Assembly: GCA_013003245.1 (NCBI GenBank)
Contig: JABDJX010000212.1
Coordinates: forward strand, 1 to 40,344
Direction: 5' to 3'
Origin: Silicimonas sp.
GTDB lineage: Bacteria > Pseudomonadota > Alphaproteobacteria > Rhodobacterales > Rhodobacteraceae
DNA: 40,344 nucleotides
Part shown: in pieces, positions 27,476 through 30,062 of the stretch
Numbering within the stretch: position 1 is the first letter of the stretch
Layout of the letters: every line of letters begins with the position of its first letter
The notes under the pieces: generated by a model
The model's database searches: none
Seen by the model: the letters and a program-made list of their open reading frames with translations, nothing else
Told to the model about the DNA's origin: nothing
Program-made: the position numbers and the translations under genes

Positions 27476-27940
27476 ATGGCATTAGATCCGCGTGAGGCTC
27501 GCGGTGAGTACCTCAAGCGTCACACAGAATCTTTGATTAAGGATCTTGGTTACGCAAGAGCCTGCGAAGTGTCGGGCAAATCTAAAGCAACCTTGGGCCG
27601 CTACGCGTCACTTCAAGACGAGAACTCGGATCGATTTATGCCGGTCAATGTTCTGGTGGAACTTGAACTCGCCGCAAGCCTTCCTTTTGTCACCAAGGCA
27701 ATTGCCGAATTGCAGCAACTAAAGCTTGAATACGGTGATGATAGGAGCGCGGACTCGGACGGGCTGAACTCAGACGTCATTCGTTTGTCTCAGCGTTTTG
27801 CGACGTTGATGGCCGAGTATAACTACTCGATGGCTGATGGTGTGATTTCGATGAATGAGACCCGCAGGTTGCTTGATGAGACCAACGCTCTTCAAAAAGT
27901 TCTGATGGAGATGAAACTGCATTTGCAGGAACGCGATTAG
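27476..27940 (+). CDS. small helical protein with a possible DNA-binding motif
   Basis: A 154-residue soluble, acidic, mostly alpha-helical protein. Residues 22-50 (LIKDLGYARACEVSGKSKAT followed by LGRYASLQD) fit a helix-turn-helix of the kind seen in CII-like phage regulators; the C-terminal half (about 105-154) predicts as a coiled coil. AAGGAC lies ten bases before the ATG. The promoter region holds the direct repeat CAATCTAT at 27395-27402 and 27413-27420. I do not recognise a named family, so the regulatory role is only a suggestion. Confidence 0.6.
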   Translation: MALDPREARGEYLKRHTESLIKDLGYARACEVSGKSKATLGRYASLQDENSDRFMPVNVLVELELAASLPFVTKAIAELQQLKLEYGDDRSADSDGLNSDVIRLSQRFATLMAEYNYSMADGVISMNETRRLLDETNALQKVLMEMKLHLQERD

Positions 27941-28394: not shown

Positions 28395-29099
28395 TCAAGC
28401 CACGCGGATCGCATTCTGGTCGATCGACAGAACGTATCCCTGACGCGCGACTGTTTTGATCAGAAGTTCGGCCACCATCTGATTACCAAGTGCGTCTCGC
28501 AGTCGTTTGATTCGCGTAGCACCCGCGGCCTCTTCACAATCAGCAGCCGACTTGCCTGAAATCACTGCTTCGATCTCGGCGCCAGACAAAACGTCTCCGT
28601 CCATCCGTGCTTCCGCAAGAACAGAGATCGTTTCAATCGCAGCACCCGTCAGAGTGAAATCCATGTCGTTGATCGAAACGATTTTCTCCTCGCGGTTAAT
28701 CGCGAGTGATGAGACCTGAATGCCCTGTCGTTCAATCGCCGCCATCCGGCGATTCTGCAGCACCATGGTGACCACAAAAACCAGACATGCGATCAAAAGC
28801 CCTGTCGCGAAAAGCATCAACACAAAGATCACCAACCGGTAGCTGGCCAAAACCTCGGAAAACGCCGTGCCAGATTGTGCGAGTATCTCCAAAAGCTTGA
28901 TTTCGGCGGCAGAGGTCAAATCAGCGTTCTCGACAAACAACCGCTCGACCCGCGCGTTAAAGGCGTTGGCGTCGGGCAGCGCGAAAAGCAGAAAAGCACC
29001 GGCGGTGCCAAGGATCAGAACAACAGCAACGATGCCGATGACGACAACCCTGGCACCTGCCGCTTTAGCCTCAGAAGCGGAGGAAGTATTGGCCTGCAT
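28395..29099 (-). CDS. membrane-anchored winged-helix protein
   Basis: A 234-residue protein with two membrane spans (about 17-41 and 88-113) enclosing a periplasmic loop of about 45 residues, then a cytoplasmic C-terminal domain (about 136-234). That domain reads like an OmpR/ToxR-type winged helix: FTLTGAAIETISVLAEAR, a central SGAEIEAVISG helix, RIKRLRDALGN as recognition helix and a closing VARQGYVLSID wing. There is no receiver domain. ToxR- and CadC-like regulators carry the winged helix before the membrane span, so this order is reversed. Its start overlaps the small exported protein gene by 29 bases. Confidence 0.65.
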   Translation of the reverse strand: MQANTSSASEAKAAGARVVVIGIVAVVLILGTAGAFLLFALPDANAFNARVERLFVENADLTSAAEIKLLEILAQSGTAFSEVLASYRLVIFVLMLFATGLLIACLVFVVTMVLQNRRMAAIERQGIQVSSLAINREEKIVSINDMDFTLTGAAIETISVLAEARMDGDVLSGAEIEAVISGKSAADCEEAAGATRIKRLRDALGNQMVAELLIKTVARQGYVLSIDQNAIRVA

Positions 29100-29364
29100 C
29101 CCGTTTCCTCTTCTCTAGCCCAGCGTCATCAAAGACCGACTGGACTTGCAACAACTGCCAACCGGCGGATTTGAGCCGCCCGGCAACAGTGGATTGCACC
29201 TTGTTTGACATAGCACAAGGGCTGCTGTCGATCTGGATGACGCCATAGTGAAGTTGAAGCGGATTATCACGCTTGGCCTTATAATCAGCGTAACAGGCGG
29301 CATGCGCAGGGGCGGCAAACCAGGCGATGGCCACAAGGGCAAGAAGATATGGATGCTTTTTCAT
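29071..29364 (-). CDS. small exported protein
   Basis: A 97-residue protein with a clear signal peptide (MKKHPYLLALVAIAWFAAPAHA) and a mature part of about 75 residues with two cysteines (ACYADYK and SPCAMSN), so a disulfide in the periplasm is plausible. The ATG at 29364 has GAGG upstream. It overlaps the start of the membrane-bound winged-helix gene by 29 bases, so the two are translated from one mRNA, and it could supply or modify the periplasmic signal for that protein. No family is recognised. Confidence 0.65.
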   Translation of the reverse strand: MKKHPYLLALVAIAWFAAPAHAACYADYKAKRDNPLQLHYGVIQIDSSPCAMSNKVQSTVAGRLKSAGWQLLQVQSVFDDAGLEKRKRDAGQYFLRF

Positions 29365-29543
29365 GGGCTCAACCTCGCCTCGCATTGCTTGAAAATCAAT
29401 AACAAGAGCGCTCCCGCCCCCTGATATCTCATATCACCGCCCCGATATTGAGCGTCAGAGTGGTTCGGCCACAGTTTGGTGTCATCGACAACAAAGCGGG
29501 ATCGCCCCGCAGTAACCTTAACGAAAACCTTTGGGGGTAGATC

Positions 29544-30062
29544 ATGACCCGACTGACACCTTTCACACTCGCCATCGTTGCGGCCTTTGGTATCGCCGTG
29601 GCACCGGCACCTGCCGCTGCTGACAGCGACGATGTCGCCAAGATAATCGCGGGCCTTGCCGTGGCGGGTATCGTGGCCAAGGTCATTGATGACCGAAAAG
29701 ATCGCGATCGTGCAACCGTCCAACAAACGTCTGATTGGAGGCCTTATAACGACTCGTTCGATAATTCGCGCCGCAACCGGAGCATTGACGGTAATCTGCG
29801 CCGCCTTGACGACAATCGACGGTACAACCGCGGGTACAAGCGGTTCGCACTTCCTGACCAGTGCTTGCGCATTCTCGACACCGCCCGCGGTGACCGTCGC
29901 GTTTATGCCCGCCACTGCCTGAAGCGCAACTATGCCTTTGCCAACCGCTTGCCTCAGGCCTGTGAAATCAAGGTCCGCACAGATCGTGGTGTCCGCACAG
30001 TTTACGGACGTCGCTGCCTTGCGCGCGACGGATGGCAGGTTGCCGGCGGTCGCCGCTGGTAA
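29544..30062 (+). CDS. Arg-rich exported protein
   Basis: A 172-residue protein with a signal peptide (residues 1-26, ending APAAA) and a basic mature part rich in Arg, Asn, Asp and Tyr (about 60-100). Two pairs of cysteines follow: QCLRILDTARGDRRVYARHC and ACEIKVRTDRGVRTVYGRRC, an internal repeat of about 37 residues that could form two disulfides. GGGGG lies before the ATG. It is divergent from the 29364 gene. Family not recognised; a structural or surface role is possible. Confidence 0.7.
   Translation: MTRLTPFTLAIVAAFGIAVAPAPAAADSDDVAKIIAGLAVAGIVAKVIDDRKDRDRATVQQTSDWRPYNDSFDNSRRNRSIDGNLRRLDDNRRYNRGYKRFALPDQCLRILDTARGDRRVYARHCLKRNYAFANRLPQACEIKVRTDRGVRTVYGRRCLARDGWQVAGGRRW

Follow-up and report, generated by a model that had tools for sequence, protein, structure and literature searches.

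A membrane-anchored protein with a C-terminal OmpR-type winged helix and a conserved promoter dyad: a predicted envelope regulator of Rhodobacteraceae

Introduction

Can a membrane-anchored transcription regulator carry an OmpR-type winged helix behind its membrane spans rather than ahead of them, and if so, what would it control? In ToxR, CadC and TcpP, the winged helix is N-terminal and is followed by one span and a periplasmic domain, with partners as in the pairs ToxRS and TcpPH. A locus in Silicimonas sp. (Rhodobacteraceae; assembly GCA_013003245.1, contig JABDJX010000212.1) appeared to present the opposite order. The whole stretch of DNA analyzed, called the window here, is 40,344 nucleotides long. 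An original prediction, made from the letters alone, placed two N-terminal spans and a C-terminal winged helix in one open reading frame of the window, and suggested sensing through a periplasmic loop with an overlapping small exported cysteine protein as candidate partner. Here, we describe a computational analysis of this protein (the regulator), of the small exported protein, and of their promoter.

Results

The regulator is a membrane protein with a C-terminal winged helix

The reading frame exists, on the minus strand; the original prediction gave no strand. The plus-strand reading of the same interval is interrupted by stops. A chance reading frame is excluded by the 541 relatives found in one scan of GTDB genomes and by a mean column identity of 78% across genera. 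See Table 1 for the coordinates of all features.

Transmembrane transcription regulators (TTRs) are described in a survey (PMC10269533) as having a predicted transmembrane region, a DNA-binding domain, and control of transcription from the membrane. Hydropathy analysis found both expected N-terminal spans, with Kyte-Doolittle peaks of 2.65 and 2.99, which supplies the transmembrane region of that description. Hydropathy and AlphaFold agree on the order span, loop, span, winged helix. The loop is 44 residues long, of which 20 are at least 97% identical among 81 sequences. The positively charged flank of a membrane span is the cytoplasmic side (the positive-inside rule), and because the positive charges of an NRR sequence come after the second span, the C-terminus is placed in the cytoplasm.

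The C-terminal part, at residues ~149–224, matched the Pfam family Trans_reg_C with an E value of 2.7e-5 and 24.6 bits, slightly under the curated cut-off of 26.2, and all 32 aligned homologues matched the same family (best E 8e-7). Together with the fold matches to CadC and ToxR given below, this provides a recognizable DNA-binding domain. NCBIfam response-regulator models align through their C-terminal (effector) half alone. Scans with Pfam and NCBIfam gave no match to a receiver domain with a phospho-accepting aspartate in the regulator, and Pfam scans gave none to a LytTR domain in it or its homologues. A profile search of PDB sequences returned nothing significant, the best being RstA at E 0.13.

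The fold had been chosen beforehand as the test on which the winged-helix claim would stand or fall, and the AlphaFold model, built from 32 sequences with a mean pLDDT of 68, is a winged helix. Residues 130–234 have the OmpR-type order of elements at a pLDDT of ~75–83 over most of their length, lower at 200–220; there are three strands, helices at 152–166, 173–181 and 190–204, and a two-stranded wing. The membrane part is modeled with modest confidence. A Foldseek search against the PDB indicates the DNA-binding domain of CadC as the first match (E 3e-4), followed by RpaA, ToxR-DNA complexes, BaeR and CovR. The stretch RIKRLRDALGN, singled out as the recognition helix from sequence, is indeed that helix in the model. 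It is part of a near-invariant segment, GATR-[IV]-KRLRD-x-LGNQ, which is among the most conserved stretches of the homologue alignment and carries the basic residues R196, K198, R199 and R201. Conservation of this helix was the second test set beforehand, and the winged-helix claim passed it. Since Pfam, AlphaFold and Foldseek agree, we regard both the winged helix and the reversed domain order as real.

Table 1. Features of the window and loci referred to in the text
Feature	Position	Strand	Details
Transmembrane winged-helix regulator	28395..29099	-	234 aa; ORF translation, Pfam, hydropathy, AlphaFold, Foldseek
Regulator parts (residues)			spans ~13-40 and ~87-115; periplasmic loop ~43-86; winged helix ~130-226; recognition helix 190-204
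Small exported protein	29071..29364	-	97 aa; signal peptide and two conserved cysteines; first operon gene
Overlap of small-protein and regulator genes	29071..29099	-	29 bases; exact in 72/81 measurable loci
Dyad-like site A'	29391..29403	-	GTTATTGATTTTC; ~27 bases ahead of small-protein start codon
Dyad site B	29422..29436	-	TGATATGAGATATCA; presumed operator over -35 region; conserved in relatives, genome-wide pattern
Half-site A (core)	29444..29450	-	CAATATC; site B follows after 7 bases
Divergent secreted-protein gene	29544-30062	+	
rnhB and ccrM-type methyltransferase genes	30236-32076		
Gene with CII-like product	27476-27940	+	
Loci with short form of small protein			L035, L042, L046, L052, L053, L055, L072, L074, L080
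Loci with Zur-like boxes			L136, L141, L142, L147, L150-L152, L155, L157, L158, L161-L163

The regulator is near-universal in one family

From the 541-relative scan, we kept 80 loci at 66–86% identity, all with Rhodobacteraceae, Paracoccaceae or Roseobacter-group names or from unclassified Alphaproteobacteria. A profile search of 385 genomes of the class found the regulator confined to Rhodobacteraceae. One weak class-wide match (L085; 30% identity, one stop) was rejected, as only residues 123–227, the winged helix alone, could be aligned. Within the order, 261 of 296 genomes carry one copy of the gene; 20 of the 35 absences fall in one genus, and the remainder are scattered.

A small exported protein is encoded with the regulator

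The small exported protein was found in 82 of 83 regulator-holding loci, and the sole exception ends at a contig edge. An exported protein encoded beside the regulator is a feature of ToxR-type systems, and its role as a partner is predicted here. The overlap between the two genes, whose conservation was to be checked, has exactly the same length in most loci (Table 1) and likely reflects translational coupling. Mean column identity is 55% for the small protein, compared with 78% for the regulator. Its alignment shows conserved Cys and His residues, and Pfam scans matched it to no family. The predicted structure (pLDDT 85) runs strand-strand-helix-strand-helix; a PDB fold search with this model gave nothing below E 0.4, and a DUF4177-like fold, which we considered, was unsupported by that search.

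In nine loci, mostly Roseovarius (Table 1), the small protein has a short form that is missing the last ~20 residues and the overlap. Residue 75 of the regulator, which lies in the loop, is L (eight) or R (one) in these loci, and Q, G or E in 71 other sequences. Mapped onto a tree of ccrM and rnhB, the short form requires approximately four changes, although it may have arisen once. This covariation is suggestive of a contact between partner and loop. The proposal of loop sensing with the cysteine protein as putative partner is supported indirectly, by the conservation of the loop, of the gene pair and its overlap, and by the covariation at residue 75.

In most loci, the pair is flanked by ccrM, rnhB and a divergent secreted-protein gene. 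The last of these is fast-evolving, is found in 64 loci, matches DUF7269 only at E 0.003, and shares the dyad-holding intergenic region with the operon.

The operon promoter carries a conserved dyad

Counts of short words upstream of the operon showed a strong over-representation of A/T-rich words. Conserved copies in relatives define a dyad, TG[AT]TAT-N3-ATA[AT]CA (TGWTAT-N3-ATAWCA). The promoters of relatives are ordered as site A, ~7 bases, site B, a variable gap of usually ~18–30 bases, and site A'. Site A has the pattern GACAGGCAATA[TA]C, and site A', ~25 bases ahead of the start codon, has the pattern G[AT]TAT-TGA-ATA[TA]C, with a second half that is degenerate in the window's own clade. 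Sites A and A' can be read as variants of the B dyad.

None of the 82 operon promoters contained CtrA boxes (TTAA-N7-TTAA). GANTC occurs in only 11 of the 82; therefore, conserved control of the operon by CcrM methylation seems unlikely. The CenR site TGA-N8-TGA (PMC9275681) was also considered and fails to account for the dyad.

The dyad recurs ahead of envelope genes and tracks the regulator

We sampled the putative regulon by sequence patterns across genomes. Exact B sites number three in the window's genome: one in the operon, one within tolQ, and one upstream of the gene for an OmpA/glycine-zipper lipoprotein (C228). With a 13-base version of the dyad, the promoter of a DUF5333 periplasmic protein is added. 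In relatives from several genera, the dyad is found ahead of the DUF5333 gene (two further genomes), the same lipoprotein gene, a DUF3108 protein gene, and genes for small lipoproteins. Matches in the window's genome, exact or nearly so, also fall within the coding sequences of tolQ and a ribonucleotide-reductase gene; these were taken as chance.

Over 296 genomes, the dyad pattern gave 537 matches versus 13 for a reversed control. Genomes with the regulator have a mean of 2.01 sites and those without it 0.37 (p 2e-11, ancestry ignored); with one site removed per regulator-bearing genome, p was 1.5e-4, ancestry again ignored. Because the regulator's absences are clustered, independent losses are few, both in this comparison and in the promoter test below. 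Genus g244 contains a recent natural loss of the regulator, genome G360, which has zero dyad sites; its seven sisters with the regulator have 2–6.

Every sampled genome has the lipoprotein gene, which allows a comparison of its promoter across them. An earlier comparison gave 7/15 against 0/15, in genomes that had been selected for high motif counts, and given this biased choice the test was redone on an unbiased sample. The matrix was made from operon sites only, and one genome was picked per regulator-bearing genus regardless of motif. A strong site 65–150 bases upstream of the gene was found in 13 of 30 regulator-bearing genomes and in none of 15 that lack the regulator (Fisher 0.0016), or 13/30 and 0/12 when counted per genus (p=0.005). 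Shuffled promoters exceeded the matrix threshold in 0.3% of cases. Visual inspection of the lipoprotein promoters shows a -10-like element (TATATG, CATAAG, TATGAT) ~12–15 bases after the dyad, a spacing that places the dyad over the -35 region.

A second set of sites, at znuA/zur, ZinT-like and cobW genes (genes recognized by eye; loci in Table 1), shares the 6-3-6 arrangement of the operon dyad; many have A/T-rich centers, and the set is evidently Zur. Such Zur-like boxes would contaminate naive motif scans. Sites left over in regulator-lacking genomes are at zur/znuA and cobW, within other reading frames, or near unrelated genes. As the lipoprotein-promoter sites track the regulator while Zur-type sites persist without it, the dyad at those promoters goes with the regulator and not with Zur.

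Discussion

We propose, at a probability of roughly 0.6, that the regulator is a one-component TTR of a Rhodobacteraceae envelope regulon and that the small protein is its periplasmic co-factor, in a ToxR-ToxS-like arrangement with inverted order. The proposal is built on the fold, the architecture, the operon, conservation, the motif, and the co-occurrence of motif and gene; from these we infer that the regulator binds the dyad as a dimer, and likewise the signal, the partner contact and the direction of control. The two N-terminal spans would anchor the regulator in the inner membrane with the conserved loop in the periplasm. The cytoplasmic winged helix, as a dimer, would bind TGWTAT-N3-ATAWCA before its own operon, where -35 and -10 would lie beneath B and A', and before envelope genes, with the OmpA/glycine-zipper lipoprotein, DUF5333, DUF3108 and small lipoproteins as predicted targets. 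The two-cysteine exported protein, made from the same mRNA, may act on the loop and set the activity of the regulator, as ToxS does for ToxR. Periplasmic input via the loop, possibly through this protein, would then change the dimerization or tethering of the winged helix. With the dyad positioned over -35 in lipoprotein promoters, and two to three sites over the presumed operon promoter, repression with negative autoregulation would be the likelier direction; activation is a possible alternative.

Several points count against this explanation. OmpR-type winged helices mostly bind direct repeats, whereas the motif is a dyad. The clustering of the regulator's absences leaves few independent losses, and the membrane part of the AlphaFold model has modest confidence. 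The lipoprotein-gene site is present in just 13 of the 30 regulator-bearing genomes, so the regulon varies between genomes. Furthermore, the case for partner contact consists of co-conservation and a single residue that covaries, for which ancestry might be the explanation. A broader version, which we hold only tentatively, is a Rhodobacteraceae-specific co-component envelope-sensing circuit, formed by the inverted membrane regulator and the periplasmic cysteine protein with their own dyad regulon, in a role like that of ToxR-ToxS or Cpx. It may be tied to the cell cycle, because the operon adjoins ccrM.

The regulator could be membrane-tethered as described while the dyad belongs to another, soluble factor, one that controls both the operon and the envelope genes and has disappeared from the lineages that lost the regulator. 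Two 6-base arms with a 3-base spacer do resemble what soluble dimeric regulators bind, and where several genes were lost together, co-occurrence does not reveal which of them is the binder. However, besides ccrM, the regulator is the only gene in the conserved neighborhood for a sequence-specific DNA-binding domain, and the densest set of sites is at its own promoter; we consider a soluble factor unlikely. In another alternative, the dyad would be a Zur (zinc) box and the operon part of a zinc response. The equal 6-3-6 layout of the znuA/zur and cobW sites in the same genomes and the conserved Cys and His of the small protein fit this idea. Yet regulator-lacking genomes retain the znuA/zur and cobW dyads while none of 15 has one at the lipoprotein gene. 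The operon matrix also nearly excludes A at position 7 (0.02) and favors G/C at the center (0.86), where zinc-gene sites often have A/T, and the targets are lipoproteins rather than zinc genes. All of this makes a Zur box very improbable.

It is also conceivable that the winged helix has lost DNA binding and acts in protein interaction within an envelope-linked membrane protein, as the sub-threshold Pfam score of the window's member and the lack of a significant PDB sequence in the profile search (best RstA, E 0.13) might suggest. A recognition helix whose basic residues sit in one of the most conserved stretches, and a regulon-like motif that tracks the regulator gene, leave this with very little probability.

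Like ToxR-ToxS, and also CadC and TcpP-TcpH, the regulator is a membrane-anchored OmpR-type winged-helix protein with envelope targets (predicted here) and an exported partner encoded alongside, and the DNA-binding domains of CadC and ToxR are its top structural matches. Unlike in ToxR, CadC and TcpP, its winged helix is C-terminal after two spans instead of N-terminal before one, as originally proposed. It further differs from ToxR-ToxS in being without a large periplasmic domain, in a partner gene that is upstream and overlapping, and in a predicted site that is a short dyad. Response regulators of the OmpR/PhoB family (RstA, ArlR, VicR) have a homologous C-terminal effector domain, but the regulator has membrane spans in place of the receiver domain and, this domain being missing, would be without phosphorylation input.

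The membrane-first order has precedents among membrane transcription regulators. HigX of Caulobacter crescentus, with four N-terminal spans, a C-terminal LytTR domain, envelope-linked targets and an inverted-repeat site (PMC13384398), resembles the regulator in being alphaproteobacterial and in its N-terminal spans, C-terminal DNA-binding domain, targets and type of site. It differs in the number of spans, in a DNA-binding domain that is non-homologous, and in having no periplasmic domain and no exported partner described. Rsp of Neisseria gonorrhoeae, presented in PMC10269533 as a fusion of the PilS receptor part with the DNA-binding domain of PilR, likewise has its membrane part N-terminal and its DNA-binding domain C-terminal, the latter of another family. 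As HigX and Rsp are already known, the novelty lies in a two-span hairpin followed by a winged helix of the OmpR type, together with the exported candidate partner and the predicted regulon; also new is the conserved operon-promoter dyad that recurs ahead of unlinked envelope genes. The regulator fits the TTR definition given in PMC10269533, control of transcription itself being predicted from motif co-occurrence. We found no paper on the regulator gene, which may be an unnamed entry in the supplementary lists of the TTR survey.

These comparisons suggest that an OmpR-type winged helix may work whether its membrane anchor is N- or C-terminal to it, a point relevant to the way tethered regulators reach DNA. 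The regulator is single-copy and near-universal in a family of major ecological importance, and its predicted site, targets and partner are specific enough for immediate testing. In the annotations examined, those of the two copies in a plasmid collection (both from Parasedimentitalea), it is a "hypothetical protein." The 110 kb plasmid pW43D of Parasedimentitalea marina (L230) carries the whole block, including ccrM. Elsewhere in the window, the product of a plus-strand gene (Table 1) weakly matches CP76, the CII family of phage regulatory proteins (E 3.5e-4), and is found in seven related loci.
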